Assembly: GCA_013361335.1 (NCBI GenBank) | Contig: JABFYH010000004.1 | Span: forward strand, 1-41,359 | DNA: 41,359 nt | DNA from: Gemmatimonadaceae bacterium | Lineage (GTDB): Bacteria; Gemmatimonadota; Gemmatimonadetes; Gemmatimonadales; Gemmatimonadaceae | Reading direction: 5' to 3' | Part shown: positions 4,071 to 18,227 of the stretch, in pieces | How the letters are laid out: every line of letters begins with the position of its first letter | Numbering within the stretch: the first letter of the stretch is position 1 | Notes under the pieces: generated by a model | The model's input: only the letters and a program-made list of their open reading frames with translations | What the model was told of the DNA's origin: nothing | Databases searched by the model: none | Position numbers and translations under genes: made by a program

Positions 4071-5237
4071 CTATCGCAGCATCCCCTTCGCGATCGTGTT
4101 GAGCTGCATGTTGCTCGTGCCCTCGTAGATCGCGCCGATCTTCGCGTCGCGGTAGAACTTCTCGGCCGGATAGTCGGTGGTGTAGCCGTAGCCGCCGAAC
4201 AGCTCGAGCGAGATCGAGGTGACGCGTTCGGCGACCTGCGACGAGAACAGCTTCGACATCGCGCCTTCCATCGAGATGTCGTGGCCCGCGTCCTTTAGGC
4301 GCGCGGCGTTGTACACCATCAGGCGGGCCGCCTCGGTCTCCGTGCGCGCCTGGGCGAGCTGGAACTGGATCCCCTGAAATTCGGCGAGCGCCTTCCCGAA
4401 CTGCTGCCGCTCCTTCACGTACGCCGTGGCGGCGGCGAGCGCGCCCTGGCTCACGCCGATCATCTGCGCGCCGATGCCGATGCGTCCCTCGTTCAGCGTC
4501 TCGATCGCGACCTTGTAGCCCTGACCCACCGGGCCGAGGACGTTCTCGGCGGGCACCACCACGCCGTCGAGGATGAGCTCCGTCGTGCTGCTCGCGCGGA
4601 TGCCGAGCTTGTCCTCCTTCTTGCCGACGGAGAAGCCGGTGAACTCGCGCTCGACCACGAACGCGGTGATCCCCTTGTAGCCGGCGGCCGGGTCGGTGTT
4701 GGCGAAGACGACGTAGATCCCCGCTTCGGCGCCGTTGGTGATCCACATCTTCCGCCCCGTGAGCACCCAGTCGCCGCCCTGCTTCACGGCGCGCGTCGCC
4801 ATGCCGAAGGCATCGGAGCCCGATCCGGGCTCGCTCAGCGCGTAAGCGCCGATCGTGTCGCTCGTCAGGCGCGGCAGGTACTTCGCCTTGAGCGCGTCGC
4901 TGCCGTAACGGGCGATGGGATAGTTGACGAGGGTGTTCTGCACGTCGACGACGATCGCCGCCGCCGCGTCGTGCTTGCTGATCTCCTCCACGGCGAGCGT
5001 CACCATCATCAGCGAGCCGCCGGCGCCGCCGTACTGTTCGGGGACCTCGATGCCCATCAGGCCCATGTCGAAGTATTGGCGGACGAGCGTGGCGTCGATC
5101 CTGCCAGCCCGCTCCATCTGCATCACGCGCGGCTTCACTTCCTCGGCCGCGAAGCCGGCGACGGCGTCGCGGAACGCGAGCTCGTCCTCGGAGAGAAGGG
5201 TGAGTGGGGGGCGAGCGGTCGCGGTGTCGGTGGTCAT
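4071..5237 (-). CDS. acyl-CoA dehydrogenase
   Basis: 388 aa; GIEVPEQYGGAGGS, YALSEPGSGSDAFGMATRA, WITNGAEAGIYVVFA, FGGYGYTTDYPAEKFYRDAKIGAIYEGTSNMQ. Confidence 0.95.
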   Translation of the reverse strand: MTTDTATARPPLTLLSEDELAFRDAVAGFAAEEVKPRVMQMERAGRIDATLVRQYFDMGLMGIEVPEQYGGAGGSLMMVTLAVEEISKHDAAAAIVVDVQNTLVNYPIARYGSDALKAKYLPRLTSDTIGAYALSEPGSGSDAFGMATRAVKQGGDWVLTGRKMWITNGAEAGIYVVFANTDPAAGYKGITAFVVEREFTGFSVGKKEDKLGIRASSTTELILDGVVVPAENVLGPVGQGYKVAIETLNEGRIGIGAQMIGVSQGALAAATAYVKERQQFGKALAEFQGIQFQLAQARTETEAARLMVYNAARLKDAGHDISMEGAMSKLFSSQVAERVTSISLELFGGYGYTTDYPAEKFYRDAKIGAIYEGTSNMQLNTIAKGMLR

Positions 5238-5722
5238 CGCACGACCTCACGGGACGCCAGAGCAGCGACCGGGTGGCAGCGGCAGGCGTCACCGCAGGCG
5301 GTCTCCGACCGCGACGTATGCCAGCAGCGCGCCGCCTCGTCAGCGGTCAGGGGGTGGGCGACCTTCAGGTCGGCGCGGCCGAGGATCAGCTCCGCCAGCT
5401 TCTCGTGCACGCCGAAGGCGCTGGTGACGCGGACCTCGAGCGTGGGGTAGCCGGCTGCCGCTTCCGCCACCATGCGCGGGATGTCGCCGGTCGAATGCTT
5501 GCCGGGTGAGAGCATGTACGGAAAGACGATGAGCTCGGTGGCGCCGGCCTCGACGCAGCTGCACACGCCGGCCGAGATCGACGGCTCGGCGAGCTCCATG
5601 TGGGCGTAGCGCACGGCGACGTCGGGGCCGGCCATGGCCTGCACGAGGTTCGCCATGCAGTTCATCATCTCGTTGGCGGCGTCGCGGCGCGAGCCGTGGT
5701 CGATCAGCAGGATGGCCTTCAT
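5234..5722 (-). CDS. CbiX/SirB-like sirohydrochlorin chelatase family protein with Cys/His-rich C-terminal tail
   Basis: MKAILLIDHGSRRDAANEMM N-terminus, VFPYMLSPGKHSTGDIP; tail CWHTSRSETACGDACRCHP; stop overlaps next ATG (ATGA). Confidence 0.8.
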   Translation of the reverse strand: MKAILLIDHGSRRDAANEMMNCMANLVQAMAGPDVAVRYAHMELAEPSISAGVCSCVEAGATELIVFPYMLSPGKHSTGDIPRMVAEAAAGYPTLEVRVTSAFGVHEKLAELILGRADLKVAHPLTADEAARCWHTSRSETACGDACRCHPVAALASREVVR

Positions 5723-6351: not shown

Positions 6352-8289
6352 TCAAGCGGGAACGGCGGCGTTCGTCGCACCGGCGCTGGCGCTCGCGGGG
6401 TCGAGCGAATCGCGGAAGACCTCCAGCGCCAGCTCCACCTTGCCGAAGGGGGCCGAGACCTGCACGCCCTGCACGGCGCCGCGCACACGGTCCAGCATCT
6501 CGCGCGCGATCGCGATCCCCTCGGCCACCGCGTGCTCCTTGGACTTCTCCCCCGCGGCGCGCATCCGGCCGATGACCTCTTCGGGCACGCTCACGCCGGG
6601 CACCTCGTTGGCGAGGAACTCGGCGTTGCGCACGCTGACGAGGGGCCAGATCCCGGCGACGATCGGCACCCGCGCCCCCTCGGTGCGGCGCAGGAAGGTC
6701 TCGAGCTGCGCGGGATCGAACACCGGCTGCGTGACGGCGAACTCCGCGCCCGCTTCCACTTTCCACGCGAAGCGCTTGAGCTCGTGCTCGAGATCGATCG
6801 GCGCCGGGTTGACGCCCACACCGATGACGAACCTGGTCGGCGCTCCGATCGCGTTGTCGCCCGGATCGCGGCCGTGATTCAGGTTGCTCACCAGATTCGT
6901 CAGCCCGATCGCGTCGATGTCGAACACCGCCGTCGCGCTCGGGTACGGCCCCATCTTGGGCGGATCGCCGGTGATGAGCAGCAGGTTGCGCAGTCCGACG
7001 GCCGACGCGCCCAGCAAGTCGCTCAGCATGCCGAGCAGATTGCGGTCGCGGCAGGCGTAGTGGGTGACCGTCTCGATGCCGACGCGCTGCTCGATGAGCA
7101 GGGAGGTGAGGAGCGCACCCATGCGGCTCTGCGCGCGCGGACCGTCCGGCACGTTCACCGCGTCGACGCCGGCGCGTTTGAGCTGTGCGACGTCGGCGAG
7201 CATGCGCGTCGCGTCCACGCCGCGCGGCGGTACGATCTCGACGCTCGTGACGAAGGTGCCGGCGGCGAGCTTGGCACCCCACCGCGAGCGCTCCGCCAGC
7301 GGGACGGCCGCGACGTCGGGTGTCCGCCGGCCTTCGCGCAGCACGGGGGGCTTGCCATCCTCGACGTGCGCGACCGGTGCGCCGGTGCGCGCGAAGCGCG
7401 GGCTGAGCGGCCGCACCCCCTCGCACATGGCGTGGATGTGATCGGGCGTCGTGCCGCAGCAGCCGCCGACCACCTTGGCGCCCGCCTGCACCAGGTGGCG
7501 CGCATAGCTGGCCATGTACTCGGGGCTGGCCATGTACATGCTGCGGCCGCCGACGTCGCGCGGCATCCCGGCGTTCGGCTGGGCGGAGAGCTTCTTCCGC
7601 GTCAGCGGCGCCATCTTCTCGATCGCGTCGAGGATCGTCTGCGGGCCGACGGAGCAGTTCAGGCCGACGACGTCGGCGCCCAGACGATCGAGGGCTCGCG
7701 CCACGTCCTCGGGGGTCGCGCCGTACGGGGTCAGCCCGTCGACGCCGATCGTCATCTGCGCGATGACCGGCATCGCGGGATCCACCTCGCGCGCCGCGGC
7801 GATGGCCTGGCCAATCTCGTGGAGGTCACCGAAGGTCTCGAGGATGAACAGGTCGGCGCCCCCCTCGCGGAGCCCTTCCATCTGCTCGCGGAAGATGGCG
7901 CGCGCCTCCTCGGCCGACGTGGGGCCGAACGGCTCGAGCCGCACGCCGAGTGGTCCAACCGCGCCGGCGACGAGCACGTCGTGCCCCTGGTCCGCCGCCT
8001 CGCGTGCCAGCTCGGCGGCGCGGCGATTCAGCTCCCGCGTCTGCGCGGCGAGCCCGAAGGTCGCCAGCTTCACGCGGTTCGCGCCGAAGCTGTTCGTCTC
8101 CAGCACCTCGGCGCCCGCCTTCACGTACGCGCGGTGGACGTCGCGCACGAGATCAGGTGAGCGGAGGTTCAGCTCGTCGTAGCACTGGTTGATGAAGACG
8201 CCCCGGGAGTAGAGCATCGTTCCCATCGCGCCATCGAACAGCACGAGGGACTGCGGGTCGATCAACCGGTCGAGCGCGGCGCGGCTCAC
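6352..8289 (-). CDS. bifunctional homocysteine S-methyltransferase / 5,10-methylenetetrahydrofolate reductase
   Basis: N-terminal Hcy methyltransferase (LFDGAMGTMLY, GLNCSVGP, VGGCCGTTPDHI) fused to MTHFR domain (TSVEIVPPRGVDATRML...LLITGDPPKMGPYPSA); GTG start overlaps metH stop (GTGA). Confidence 0.93.
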   Translation of the reverse strand: MSRAALDRLIDPQSLVLFDGAMGTMLYSRGVFINQCYDELNLRSPDLVRDVHRAYVKAGAEVLETNSFGANRVKLATFGLAAQTRELNRRAAELAREAADQGHDVLVAGAVGPLGVRLEPFGPTSAEEARAIFREQMEGLREGGADLFILETFGDLHEIGQAIAAAREVDPAMPVIAQMTIGVDGLTPYGATPEDVARALDRLGADVVGLNCSVGPQTILDAIEKMAPLTRKKLSAQPNAGMPRDVGGRSMYMASPEYMASYARHLVQAGAKVVGGCCGTTPDHIHAMCEGVRPLSPRFARTGAPVAHVEDGKPPVLREGRRTPDVAAVPLAERSRWGAKLAAGTFVTSVEIVPPRGVDATRMLADVAQLKRAGVDAVNVPDGPRAQSRMGALLTSLLIEQRVGIETVTHYACRDRNLLGMLSDLLGASAVGLRNLLLITGDPPKMGPYPSATAVFDIDAIGLTNLVSNLNHGRDPGDNAIGAPTRFVIGVGVNPAPIDLEHELKRFAWKVEAGAEFAVTQPVFDPAQLETFLRRTEGARVPIVAGIWPLVSVRNAEFLANEVPGVSVPEEVIGRMRAAGEKSKEHAVAEGIAIAREMLDRVRGAVQGVQVSAPFGKVELALEVFRDSLDPASASAGATNAAVPA

Positions 8290-11200
8290 GAGACGACCGC
8301 CTCGCCACCCGTGCGAACCGCGTAGTACTTCGCCTGCGGGTGGTGCACGAGGATGGCCGCGGTGCTCTGCTCGGGGATGAGCTGGAAGGCGGAGGTGAGC
8401 TCCATGCCCAGGGCCTCCTCGGCGGGGAGAAGCTTGAAGAGCTGGGCGTGGTCCTCGAGGTCGGGACAGGCGCCGTAGCCCCACGAGTAGCGCTTGCCGC
8501 GGCCACCGGGGATCCCCAGCTCGCGCCGGATGCGTCGATGCAGCCATTCGGCCACCGCCTCCGCCGACTCGACGGCGAGTCCATGCGAGTACAGGCCCTC
8601 GCTGTACTCACCCGCGGCCTGGAGCGCCTCGAACCGGCGCGTCGCTTCGTCGCCGACGGTGACGATCTGGAAGGCGACGACGTCCACGTCGCCGCTCGTG
8701 GACGGCCGGAAATAGTCGGCGATGCAGAGGCGCTCGCGCCCCTCCTGCCGCGGGAAGTGGAAGCGCGTCTTCTCGACGAGCGTGCCGTCGCGCGCATAGG
8801 GCTCGGGCTCGTACACCACCAGCTCGTTCCCCATGCTCTGCGCCGGGAAGTAGCCGTACACGGCACGGGGCCGGAGCCACCCCTCCTCGAGCGCCTCCCG
8901 CTTGAGGCGCTCGAGCGTGGGGGTGAACTCCTCGCGCACGAGCCGGTCGTACTCCGGTCCGGAGCCGCGGGCGCCCCACTGCAGGCGGAACAGCTCGTCG
9001 AGGTCGAGCAGGTCGAACACCTCGGTCAGCGGAATGTCCTCGAGGACGCGCGTGCCGAAGAATGGGGCAGGAGGGATGGCGTGATCCTGTGCCACGTCGC
9101 TCTTCTCGCCGCCGCTCACGCCCTGCGCGACGTCCTTGCCGACGCTGGCATGCAGGAAGACGTCCTGGCGAGCATCGTCGAGAAGCTTGGCGATCGCCGC
9201 CTGGCGCCGCTCGGGGGTATCCTGGAGCGTGTCCATCGTTTCCAACCCCTCGAACGCGTCCTTGCAGTAGAACACGCCCGACTCGTAGGCGCGCTCGCCG
9301 GCGACGAACATCGCCCGCCGCCCGAAGCGACGGTTGATCGCCGCGCCGCCGATCAGCACCGGGATCCGGATCCCGCGCTTGTCCAGCTCCTGTACGCACA
9401 GCGGCATCTGCTTGCTCGTGCTCACCAGCAGCGCCGAGAGGCCGATCGCATCCGCGCCGACCTCGAGGGCTTTCTCGATGATGGTGTTCACGGGCACCTG
9501 CTTGCCGAGATCGAACACCGTGTAGCCGTTGTTGCTGAGGATCGTGTTGACGAGCGACTTGCCGATGTCGTGCACGTCGCCATACACGGTCGCCAGCACG
9601 ACCTTGCCCTTGGTGTACCCCTCGGCCTTCTCCAGGAACTGCTCGAGGTGCTTCACCGCCTTCTTCATCACCTCGGCGCTCTGCAGGACGAAGGGCAGGA
9701 TGAGCTCACCGGCGCCGAACTTGTCGCCCACCTCCTTCATGGCCGGGAGGAGGACGTCGTTGAGCACGCGCACGGGATTCGCGCGCACGCCGGCCGCGTC
9801 GAGCGCCTCCTCGATTCCCTCCTTCTTCCGGTGGAGGACCATGTAGTGGACCTTCGCGTCGGGCGACAGGCCGGCGGTCGGGTCCTCTTTCTCCTGCCTG
9901 GTGGCGAGCTCGGACTTCGACGAAAATCCGTCGATGAACCGCTGGAGCGCGTCGGGTCGACGGTTGAACACGAGATCGTCCGCGAGCGCGCGCTGCTCGG
10001 CGCTGATCTCGGCGTACGGCGTGATGTGCGCCGGGTTCACGATCGCGGCGTCGAGCCCCGCTTCCACGCAGTGGTGCAGGAACACCGAGTTGAGCACGTA
10101 GCGCGCGGCCGGGTCGAGCCCGAAGCTCACGTTCGAGACGCCGAGGATGGTGAACACGCCCGGCAGCTCCCGCTTGATCAGGCGGATGCCTTCGATGGTC
10201 TCGTGCGCGCTGTCGATCCACTCCGGGTCGCCGGTGGCGAGGGTGAAGGTCAGCGCATCGTAGATGAGGTCTTCCGGCTTCAGCCCGTACTCGCCGACGA
10301 CGATGTCGTAGATGGCGCGCGCCACCTCGAGCTTCCGCTCACGGGTCTTCGCCATGCCCGCCGGATCGATCGTCAGGGCGACGAGCGCCGCACCGTGCTT
10401 CTTCGCGATCGGCACGACGGAGTCGATGCGCGCGCGGCCGTTCTCCATGTTGATGGAGTTGATGATCGCGCGCCCGGGGATGTGCTGGAGCGCCGCCTCG
10501 ATCACCCCCGCCTCGGTGGAGTCGACCATGATCGGCGTCTCCACGCTCATCGAGATGAGCTTGACCAGCTTGGCCATCTGCTCGGCTTCGTCGGCCCGTT
10601 CGGTGACGGCCACGCAGACGTCGAGCACATGGGCGCCCGAGTCCTGCTGCTCGCGCGCGACCTCGAGGATGCCCTCGTAGTCCTCGGCGAGCAACAGGCG
10701 CTTCACCTTGCGCGAGCCCTGCGCGTTGACGCGCTCCCCGACCAGCAGGGGTGCCGGCTCCTGGCGGAGCGACGTCGCGCGCATGGCCGACGAGACCAGC
10801 GCTTCGCGCGCGTGCGGCGCGAGCGGGTGAGGCGCGGCATCGCGCACCGCGCCGACGATGGCGGCGAGATGCTCTGGGGTGGTACCGCAGCAGCCGCCGA
10901 CGATGCGCACGCCGAAGTCCGCCACGAACTCGCGCAGCATCCCCGCCATCGGCGCCGGCTCGAGGGGGTAGATGGCCTCGCCCGTGCCGGTGTTGAGGGG
11001 GAGCCCCGCGTTGGGGATCACCGATATGGGTACGGAGCCATGTTCGGTCAGGAAGCGCACCGGCTCGCGCATGTGCTCCGGGCCCGTCGAGCAGTTGAGC
11101 CCCAGCACGTCGACGCGCATCGCCTCGAGCGTGGTGAGGGCGCTCGCGATGTCGGTGCCGAGCAGCATGCGGCCGCTGACGTCCAGCGTGACCTGCGCCT

Positions 11201-11801
11201 GCACGGGAATGCGGCGTCCGAGCTCGGCGAAGAGCCGCTCGAAGCCGGTGAGCGCCGCCTTGACCTCGAGGATGTCCTGCGCCGTCTCCACGAGCAGGAC
11301 GTCGACGCCGCCTTCGACGAGGTACTTCGCCTGGAGATAGTAGGTCTCGGCGAGCGCGTCGAAGGTGATGGCGGAGAGCGCCGGATCGCTGCTCGAGGGG
11401 AGCATGCCGGTCGGGCCGATGGAGCCGGCGACGAAGCGCGGCCGATCGGGCGTTGCGTACCTGTCGCACGCGGCGCGTGCCAGACGAGCCGCTGCCACGT
11501 TGAGGTCGCGTGCCCTATCGAACAGCCCCCACTCCTTCAGCCGGTGCGGGGTGCTCTGGAAGGTGCAGGTCTCCACGACGTCGCAGCCCACGGCGAGAAA
11601 CGACTCGTGGATCGACTGGATGATGTCCGGCCGGGTGAGGACGAGGTTGTCGTTGCACCCTTCCAGCGCCTTCCCGCCGTAGTCCTCCGCGGTCGGGTTG
11701 TGGCGCTGGATGTTGGTGCCCATCGCGCCGTCATAGACGAGCACGCGATCGGCGAGAGCGCGAAGGTACGAGCTGGAGGACGAGGCGAGGGGGTCGGACA
11801 T
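8286..11801 (-). CDS. metH: cobalamin-dependent methionine synthase
   Basis: Hcy-binding (YDGAMGTNIQ), pterin-binding (VGERVNAQGSRKVKRL), B12-binding (VYGDVHDIGKSLV) and AdoMet activation domains; ATG at 11801 (track start is a TTG inside the terminator U-tract). Confidence 0.97.
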   Translation of the reverse strand: MSDPLASSSSSYLRALADRVLVYDGAMGTNIQRHNPTAEDYGGKALEGCNDNLVLTRPDIIQSIHESFLAVGCDVVETCTFQSTPHRLKEWGLFDRARDLNVAAARLARAACDRYATPDRPRFVAGSIGPTGMLPSSSDPALSAITFDALAETYYLQAKYLVEGGVDVLLVETAQDILEVKAALTGFERLFAELGRRIPVQAQVTLDVSGRMLLGTDIASALTTLEAMRVDVLGLNCSTGPEHMREPVRFLTEHGSVPISVIPNAGLPLNTGTGEAIYPLEPAPMAGMLREFVADFGVRIVGGCCGTTPEHLAAIVGAVRDAAPHPLAPHAREALVSSAMRATSLRQEPAPLLVGERVNAQGSRKVKRLLLAEDYEGILEVAREQQDSGAHVLDVCVAVTERADEAEQMAKLVKLISMSVETPIMVDSTEAGVIEAALQHIPGRAIINSINMENGRARIDSVVPIAKKHGAALVALTIDPAGMAKTRERKLEVARAIYDIVVGEYGLKPEDLIYDALTFTLATGDPEWIDSAHETIEGIRLIKRELPGVFTILGVSNVSFGLDPAARYVLNSVFLHHCVEAGLDAAIVNPAHITPYAEISAEQRALADDLVFNRRPDALQRFIDGFSSKSELATRQEKEDPTAGLSPDAKVHYMVLHRKKEGIEEALDAAGVRANPVRVLNDVLLPAMKEVGDKFGAGELILPFVLQSAEVMKKAVKHLEQFLEKAEGYTKGKVVLATVYGDVHDIGKSLVNTILSNNGYTVFDLGKQVPVNTIIEKALEVGADAIGLSALLVSTSKQMPLCVQELDKRGIRIPVLIGGAAINRRFGRRAMFVAGERAYESGVFYCKDAFEGLETMDTLQDTPERRQAAIAKLLDDARQDVFLHASVGKDVAQGVSGGEKSDVAQDHAIPPAPFFGTRVLEDIPLTEVFDLLDLDELFRLQWGARGSGPEYDRLVREEFTPTLERLKREALEEGWLRPRAVYGYFPAQSMGNELVVYEPEPYARDGTLVEKTRFHFPRQEGRERLCIADYFRPSTSGDVDVVAFQIVTVGDEATRRFEALQAAGEYSEGLYSHGLAVESAEAVAEWLHRRIRRELGIPGGRGKRYSWGYGACPDLEDHAQLFKLLPAEEALGMELTSAFQLIPEQSTAAILVHHPQAKYYAVRTGGEAVVS

Positions 11802-11814
11802 GCGGAGCACCGAC

Positions 11815-11851
11815 AAAAAAAGGAGCCCAAACGCGATCGGCGTGCGGGCTC
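11815..11851 (-). terminator. intrinsic terminator (attenuator) in metH leader
   Basis: Minus strand GAGCCC-(17 nt)-GGGCTC-C-TTTTTTT, U-tract ends 13 nt before metH ATG. Confidence 0.8.
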
Positions 11852-11854
11852 GCG

Positions 11855-11901
11855 CTTTAGCAGGGGATTAACGTGGCCGCAATTTGCTTGAAATCGCCAC
11901 G
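11855..11901 (-). promoter_or_regulatory. SAM-II (SAM-alpha) type riboswitch aptamer upstream of metH
   Basis: Minus strand CGTGGCGATTTCAAGCAAATTGCGGCCACGTTAATCCCCTGCTAAAG: P1 CGUGGC/GCCACG plus GAUUU, UUGCnGCCACGUUAA and GCUAAAG elements recalled for SAM-II. Confidence 0.85.
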
Positions 11902-11923: not shown

Positions 11924-11931
11924 CAAAGGTA
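11924..11931 (-). promoter_or_regulatory. possible -7/-10 element for the metH leader (TACCTTTG)
   Basis: Minus strand TACCTTTG resembles the TAnnTTTG element of Bacteroidetes-type promoters; would start transcription just 5' of the riboswitch. Confidence 0.3.
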
Positions 11932-12005
11932 GCCGGGAAGCAGCTGTTGAGCAAGCACCCAAATGCTGACGCGGCAGCGACTTCCGACGGATGACGGCGA
12001 CGACG

Positions 12006-17028: not shown

Positions 17029-17682
17029 TCAGCGCGGCGTCCACGTCGGCGCCGTGGTGAACAGGCCGTCGACGAACCCGATCCGGTGCGCGAGCAGCAG
17101 ACCGAAGCCGATGCTCGCCACCCCGGAGGCGATGCGCAGCGTGCGGTTCATGCCGGCGAAGCGGCGCGTGGCGAACAGCGACGGCGCCGCGATCGAGACG
17201 GTGACGAGCAGCATGCCCACGATCGTGCCGACGCCGAAGACGGCGAGATAGCCCGCTGCCCACCGGGGATCGGGGATCAGCGCCACCTGCGGCAGCGTCG
17301 CCACCGCGGCGGAGCCGGCCAGCCCGTGTACGAAGCCGACGGTGAGCGGGCGCGCGGTGCTGTCGGCGACGCGGCGCTCCCCACCGGCCAGCGTGAGGAG
17401 GCCGAGCACGATCAGCATGACGGCGACCGCGAACTCGAGCGAGAGCCCCACCCGCGGCGGGATGCCGTCGAGCTGCACCTTGAGCAGGATGATCGCCCCG
17501 CCGACGAGCAGGATCGTCGCCGTGTGGCCGATCCCCCAGAGGACGCCGGTGCGCGCCGCGCGGAGGAGCGAGCGTTGCTGCGCGACGATCGTCGTCACGG
17601 CGACGACATGATCGGGGTCGGTGGCGTGCCGCATGCCGAGCAGGAAGCCCAGCCCGAGCACGCCGAGGAGCGCCGTCAGCAT
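17029..17682 (-). CDS. nickel/cobalt transporter-like (HoxN/NixA/UreH-type) membrane protein
   Basis: GFLLGMRHATDPDHVVAVTTIVAQQ and GVLWGIGHTATIL motifs; ATGA coupled to crcB. Confidence 0.85.
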   Translation of the reverse strand: MLTALLGVLGLGFLLGMRHATDPDHVVAVTTIVAQQRSLLRAARTGVLWGIGHTATILLVGGAIILLKVQLDGIPPRVGLSLEFAVAVMLIVLGLLTLAGGERRVADSTARPLTVGFVHGLAGSAAVATLPQVALIPDPRWAAGYLAVFGVGTIVGMLLVTVSIAAPSLFATRRFAGMNRTLRIASGVASIGFGLLLAHRIGFVDGLFTTAPTWTPR

Positions 17683-18095
17683 CAGAGCCGCACGGGAAGC
17701 AGGACGCGCGCGAGCGTCGCGCCGGCCAGGGTGGCGAGGAGGGCGAGTCCCACGCTCGCCGCGACGTTCATCGCCGCCAATGCGCCCGCTCCGCTCTCGA
17801 TCAGGGCCATCGTGTCGGCGCTGAAGGTGGAGAAGGTGGTGTAGCCGCCGCAGAAGCCCAGAACGAGCAGCGAGTGGAGCATCGTCGCGCTCGACGTCCG
17901 TCGCGCGAGGACCACGATCAGCACGCCGATGACGAAGGATCCGGTCAGGTTCACGAGGAGCGTGCCGATCGGAAAGGGCTTCGCGCCGGCGTGCGGCATG
18001 ACGCGTCCGAGGCGCTCCTGGAGCCACACCCCCGCCAGGACCCGCGCGAGCCCGCCGGCTGCGCTGCCGACGGCAACGTAGAGGTAGTTGAGCAT
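17682..18095 (-). CDS. crcB: fluoride efflux channel CrcB/Fluc
   Basis: VGSAAGGLARVLAGVWLQ...PIGTLLVNLTGSFVIGVL...GFCGGYTTFSTFSADT. Confidence 0.95.
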   Translation of the reverse strand: MLNYLYVAVGSAAGGLARVLAGVWLQERLGRVMPHAGAKPFPIGTLLVNLTGSFVIGVLIVVLARRTSSATMLHSLLVLGFCGGYTTFSTFSADTMALIESGAGALAAMNVAASVGLALLATLAGATLARVLLPVRL

Positions 18096-18113
18096 GGGGC
18101 CGGAATCTAATGC

Positions 18114-18227
18114 GATGAGCGGATGAGCGGATGAGCGGCTGAGCATTAAGGACACACCACACCCGCGTCGGCGTGCCCGCGTCGTTCCACTCCATCGCTC
18201 CACCGCTCCTCCGACTTCATCCGCTCA
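18114..18227. repeat. octamer tandem (GATGAGCG x3 + GCTGAGCA) with imperfect inverted partner
   Basis: 18114-18145 tandem; right arm 18194-18227 (revcomp GTGAGCGGATGAAGTCGGAGGAGCGGTGGAGCGAT). Confidence 0.65.

Follow-up and report, generated by a model that had tools for sequence, protein, structure and literature searches.

A SAM-II riboswitch in the leader of a Gemmatimonadaceae metH gene most likely stops transcription when S-adenosylmethionine is sufficient

The window analyzed here, a stretch of 41,359 nucleotides from a Gemmatimonadaceae bacterium, carries on its minus strand a gene for a cobalamin-dependent methionine synthase (metH; 8286..11801, 1171 aa; TIGR02082, 1134.9 bits against a cut-off of 1010.85). 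The next gene on that strand (6352..8284) encodes a bifunctional homocysteine S-methyltransferase/methylenetetrahydrofolate reductase (BHMT-MTHFR) of the YitJ type (NF006396, 721.6 bits, cut-off 453); its start is approximate, with the open frame extending to 8547 and homology beginning at about 8250. A sequence-only reading of this DNA had proposed that a SAM-II riboswitch controls a metH-metF unit. The identification of metH as the target was borne out by the protein match and by the occurrence of the same element 5′ of metH in relatives, while "metF" was half right, the gene being a BHMT-MTHFR fusion. Shortly 3′ of this cluster lies a gene for a CbiX-type cobalt/nickel chelatase (5234-5722, minus strand), and a weak similarity to NicO-type nickel/cobalt transporters (27.0 bits, just under the cut-off) is found at 17029-18195 (minus strand). 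Upstream, the metH ATG at 11801 is preceded by a leader with a candidate promoter, TTGCTC-17-TACCTT (11926..11954, minus strand), which is a weak match about 24 nt before the first aptamer helix; a formal promoter scan found none at 11926..11954. Two relatives in the genus (L114 and L116) have TTGCYC-17-TATYTA at the corresponding place, and σ70 consensus matches of at least 9 of 12 positions occur in 25% of the 114 leaders compared below versus 0.9% of shuffled ones, mostly 15-21 nt before P1. The sequence TTTGACA at 11926 was rejected as a consensus promoter, as it lacks a -10 element at the right spacing.

The SAM-II (SAM-alpha) aptamer spans about 11903-11850 of the minus strand, 5′ of the antiterminator/terminator region and the metH ATG. 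P1 has six base pairs, formed by CGTGGC (11901-11896) and GCCACG (11877-11872; placed by the sequence, the alignment of relatives and the R1 covariance model described below), and closes the GAUUU...UUGC loop. According to the RF00521 and R1 alignments, L1 (11883..11895, minus strand) includes the conserved GAUUU (11895-11891) and the 5′ strand of the outer pseudoknot helix P2a, GC (11887-11886), whose register is based on covariation in relatives. All three core motifs are in the window element: GAUUU, UUGC (TTGC; 11882-11879) and the SAM-binding GCUAAA (GCTAAA; 11861-11856), the latter two invariant in 47/47 relatives. Within UUGC and GCUAAA, the inner pairs G11880-C11860 and C11879-G11861 (P2b) are also invariant. 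Two of the three outer pairs are formed, C11886-G11853 and G11887-C11852 (3′ strand GC, 11852..11853). The third is an A·G mismatch in the window (A11888 × G11851) and G·G or U·G in some members of the genus; in the 47-aptamer alignment it covaries (pair 17-56; GC in 29, CG in 9 and AU in 3). With only two outer base pairs and no covarying third pair, the affinity for SAM could be low. The strings quoted in the sequence-only reading were all found base for base at the positions it gave, and its use of GAUUU and GCUAAA as a SAM-II core is upheld by their invariance in relatives and by the full-length alignment to RF00521. It was also correct that P2 is short. The P2 that it traced, AGCA/UGCU, differs from the SAM-II pseudoknot and was ruled out because the GC of GCUAAA pairs with the GC of UUGC in every relative.

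No Rfam family matched the window at gathering thresholds, so a first look would miss the element. A permissive search of 501 bases with all 4227 families gave a full-length match to RF00521 at 23.7 bits (E = 0.0031), below the gathering score of 36 bits, which is a detection threshold and not a structural feature. SAM-II aptamers were then gathered from 61 genomes (the bacterium's own and those of relatives) and from named metH loci. Some named loci are contigs of sampled genomes (L032 is G007:C179), and duplicates were dropped by sequence before counting, giving 114 distinct aptamers. To obtain a non-circular test, the R1 model was built from 47 aligned aptamers, with every metH leader from the window's genus excluded; the homoserine dehydrogenase leader of the window's own genome is among the 47, as are a few leaders of genes other than metH from the genus. 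R1 scored the window element at 63.2 bits (E = 2.3e-13), its sole match within 41 kb, and over the genome found just one further good match, 5′ of homoserine dehydrogenase. Matches in 47 of the 61 near relatives exceed the RF00521 cut-off. Together with the R1 match, these relatives indicate that the window element is a SAM-II member underscored by the Rfam model; the J region UUAAUCCCC and the two-base-pair P2a probably keep it under the cut-off.

Covariation across related leaders, a check that the sequence-only reading had suggested, was found in the P2 pseudoknot as well as in P1. Of the alignment cells in P1, 99.6% are paired, with one pair exchanging UA, AU and CG among the 47 relatives, and cells of P1 and P2 together are paired in 90.6% of cases versus 25-36% in slid versions of the same alignment. 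The covariation score of the whole model was 0.123 versus 0.079 after shuffling, and none of 500 shuffles reached the observed value. The metH leaders of Longimicrobiaceae use a different P1 (GGUGG/CCACC) and a different outer P2 (GAC/GUC). A chance origin is excluded by the E values of RF00521 and R1 and by the terminators of real versus shuffled sequences (below). The proposed SAM-II class is thereby sustained by the sub-threshold RF00521 match, the genus-excluded R1 match and the covarying pairs, and on its sequence the element is a real SAM-II riboswitch, of a kind already known. SAM-V has similar core motifs, and the two classes have a common fold and ligand recognition (PMC9481103). That the element belongs to SAM-V instead has a negligible chance of being right: the SAM-V model (RF01826) gave no match in the window at E up to 10 in the all-family Rfam search, while RF00521 aligns end to end, and a terminator platform is typical of SAM-II, with control at the ribosome-binding site typical of SAM-V.

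Directly 3′ of the aptamer core is a terminator hairpin, GAGCCCGCACGCCGATCGCGTTTGGGCTC (11851-11823, minus strand; GAGCCC...GGGCTC), followed by a U-tract of seven T residues (11821-11815) that ends 13 nt before the metH ATG. The hairpin is stronger than the sequence-only reading stated, having an inner ACGC/GCGT stem besides the outer stem (ΔG -17.4 kcal/mol). An alternative 8-bp helix had been proposed between AAGCGCGA (11857-11850) and TCGCGTTT (11836-11829). This antiterminator was recovered in nascent-chain folding, and analogous helices occur in relatives. When the nascent RNA ends at 11829 or 11826, the unforced minimum free energy structure contains the 8-bp antiterminator (-19.5 and -22.1 kcal/mol, respectively); once the chain extends to 11822 and the 3′ arm of the terminator has been made, the terminator fold is best, at -29.1 versus -24.5 kcal/mol for the forced antiterminator (a gap of 4.6 kcal/mol). 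By structure and by conservation, the two folds are mutually exclusive and both are tied to the aptamer. All nine metH leaders of the genus retain GCUAAA and both arms, with GCGCGA in the 5′ arm and TCGCGT in the 3′ arm UCGCGUUU (11829..11836, minus strand), and the intervening stretch differs in sequence and length. One of them, L119, retains UCGCGUUU though its inner terminator stem is largely gone. The antiterminator pairs hardly vary in the genus, so the support there is conservation without covariation. The aptamer and its family, the terminator, and the alternative helix with its conservation can all be read from sequence and comparison.

These features suggest the following mechanism. 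As the leader emerges from RNA polymerase, P1 would form. When SAM is present, it would bind the P2 pseudoknot made by L1/UUGC and GCUAAAGCGC; the SAM-bound aptamer would retain the GCUAAAGCGC strand, leaving GAGCCC free to pair with GGGCUC and so form the terminator before metH. When SAM is scarce, AAGCGCGA would pair with UCGCGUUU once the latter has been transcribed, removing the AAAGCGC strand from the aptamer and sequestering part of the terminator, and polymerase would read through into metH. SAM binding itself is predicted from the invariant SAM-II core, by analogy with Agrobacterium tumefaciens metA, for which it is established (PMC1273637), and the choice between the folds would depend on SAM. 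The second gene is presumably cotranscribed with metH and controlled alongside it. Very probably, the leader contains a SAM-II riboswitch whose platform is a transcriptional OFF switch governing both metH and the BHMT-MTHFR gene behind it, and transcription is most likely stopped by this switch when S-adenosylmethionine is sufficient. The OFF logic by termination that had been proposed earlier agrees with the terminator and its T7 tract, with nascent-chain folding and with the switch helices of relatives.

SAM-II could instead act on translation by occluding the ribosome site, or at both levels as in Sinorhizobium meliloti metA, and translational action is known for metX and metA (PMC10907184, PMC9373788). 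For the metH leader this is improbable. Inspection of the sequence found no Shine-Dalgarno motif between the U-tract and the ATG, as previously noted, and none near the aptamer; with no ribosome site overlapping the aptamer, translational control is unlikely. A terminator with a T7 tract stands directly 3′ of the aptamer; of the 114 related aptamers, 99 have a terminator after them. A shade less likely again is that the aptamer has decayed and become insensitive to SAM, leaving the hairpin as a constitutive attenuator, with SAM control lost through a weak P2 in this genus. The reduction of P2a to two base pairs, through the mismatches in the window and in some members of the genus, and the score below the Rfam cut-off would fit such decay, but 9/9 members have GAUUU, UUGC, GCUAAA and every P1 pair unaltered. 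That both antiterminator arms persist along with the core and P1, while nearby loop bases change, points to continuing selection.

Related leaders were compared for their expression platforms. Terminator-like hairpins follow 99/114 aptamers, and terminators with ΔG of -10 kcal/mol or lower occur at 96/114 versus 6-9/114 in shuffled sequences. Tail-type switch helices that use the GCUAAA motif are found in other families and reach 11 bp, as in L175 (GCUAAAAAGCC × GGCUUUUUAGC, 11 bp), L022 (GCUAAAACGCU × GGCGUUUUGGC) and L012 (GCUAAAACG × CGUUUUGGC). In 16/99 sequences, GCUAAA together with 7 nt forms a helix of at least 8 bp with the interior of the terminator; dinucleotide shuffles give an expectation of 3.0 (maximum 7 in 100), and exchanging partners among sequences gives 8.1 (maximum 14 in 1000). 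A control segment, the 9 nt before GCUAAA, showed no excess of terminator-pairing helices. Outside the genus, metH relatives have a shorter tail-type helix, GCGCC × GGYGC, of 5 bp, found in 20 of 26 aptamers that carry this tail. A second type of switch pairs L1 with the 5′ arm of the terminator. It reads GCCGCC × GGCGGC in 26 sequences and, by a two-sided exchange seen in several genera, GCCGCG × CGCGGC in 5. The statistic for this L1 type partly reflects composition (reversed-arm control, z 2.5), so its support is taken from the compensatory C/G exchange. A single universal antiterminator was ruled out, the tail-type and L1-type helices differing among subgroups. Both types compete with P2, and both would therefore make SAM favor the terminator.

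SAM-II is widespread in the phylum. In a sample of 301 Gemmatimonadota genomes, matches at E ≤ 0.001 were found in 207 and matches above the Rfam cut-off in 176. The element lies 5′ of metH in 9/9 genus members that have a metH match. Judged by MetH, the closest named relatives are Gemmatimonadaceae genomes from metagenomes, and the window is itself one contig of a genome of this kind. MetH in Gemmatimonadales comes in two types that have diverged deeply and are separated by very long branches; L137-L141 and the window are 37-41% identical across 640 N-terminal residues, and both types often stand behind SAM-II: by coordinates, the element precedes metH in 24/25 genomes with the window's type (type-1), and it precedes metH or metF-metH in 23/31 genomes with the other (type-2). 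The window's type clusters with MetH from Chloroflexota and other phyla. A SAM-I riboswitch (S-box, RF00162) lies directly upstream of four Chloroflexota metH genes (L046, L047, L053 and L063), whose products are some of the closest homologues outside Gemmatimonadota, and SAM-II was absent from the 15 mostly Chloroflexota metH loci searched. These pairings place one gene family under two SAM sensors and two MetH enzymes under one sensor. We consider that there is about an even chance that Gemmatimonadota SAM-II is a phylum-wide master sensor (for metH, metF, hom, thrC, metX, metY, metK, panB and sulfur-transfer genes) and was also kept or recruited twice before two non-orthologous MetH enzymes, one of them nearest to the SAM-I-run enzymes of Chloroflexota. 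If so, a gene that moved between phyla exchanged one class of SAM-sensing RNA for another.

SAM-II has been recorded in α-, β- and γ-Proteobacteria and in Bacteroidetes, and its link to terminators has been made before (PMC2258182, PMC1273637). The recorded proteobacterial targets are metY, hom, metA, metX, metC and metW (PMC4239095). The window element resembles the SAM-II class as first described (RF00521; Corbino et al. 2005, PMC1273637) in its P1, GAUUU...UUGC loop, GCUAAA and H-type P2 pseudoknot, and also in lying 5′ of a methionine gene, in having a terminator and in its proposed OFF logic. It differs in its phylum, Gemmatimonadota, and in its target, metH plus BHMT-MTHFR in place of metA, metX, metY, hom or metC. 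The S. meliloti metZ element is likewise predicted to terminate transcription 5′ of a methionine gene (PMC9373788), although gene and phylum differ and the window has a readable, comparison-supported alternative helix. The Chloroflexota leaders share a SAM sensor directly 5′ of the same kind of gene, but their aptamer class is unrelated. No paper on SAM-II in Gemmatimonadota or on metH as a SAM-II target was found in the openly searchable literature, Rfam species lists aside. The earlier remark that SAM-II control of metH is unusual therefore agrees with the targets listed in searchable papers and fails for this clade, where it is the rule. New here are the phylum-wide presence of SAM-II in Gemmatimonadota, its use for metH and its readable off-on parts, all unreported in that literature; the clade brings methionine synthase into the range of SAM-II targets and adds a phylum that searchable SAM-II papers leave unmentioned, and the Rfam model scores the window's metH leader too low for reporting. 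Ligand binding by SAM-II is well understood and its expression platforms are hardly studied; effects on gene expression were described as previously unstudied in PMC9373788. The Gemmatimonadota set offers more than 100 aptamers, most of them with terminators, and two visible kinds of antiterminator, some of which use the ligand-binding GCUAAA as the switch strand; with this set, SAM-II switching becomes testable by simple mutations.

Elsewhere in the clade, SAM-II lies 5′ of hom, metX, metY, cystathionine γ-synthase, thrC, metK, panB and other genes. The second element of the window's own genome (L001:1286-1216, minus strand; G000:C12; 35.1 bits) has homoserine dehydrogenase downstream, a TTGACA-18-TATGAT promoter and the terminator GCCCGGCG/CGCCGGGC, and its L1 GCCGCC matches the GGCGGC of that terminator. 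Genes resembling panB, which encodes the methylene-THF enzyme 3-methyl-2-oxobutanoate hydroxymethyltransferase, stand behind SAM-II at L002 (minus strand), L172, L189, L196 and L204, with the family assigned for one and the rest identified by similarity. L002 (G010:C13) has two divergent SAM-II elements on opposite strands about 0.3 kb apart, one of them before panB. A SAM-II-like element at L181, with P1 CGCGGC/GCCGCG, precedes metK, a gene outside the SAM-II targets of the survey cited above. According to a statement reportedly made in 2007, no species has both SAM-I and SAM-II; two contigs run against this, as G041:C8 and G043:C1 carry SAM-I-like matches together with SAM-II, at 44.8 bits (over the cut-off) and 42.4 bits (just under it), respectively.
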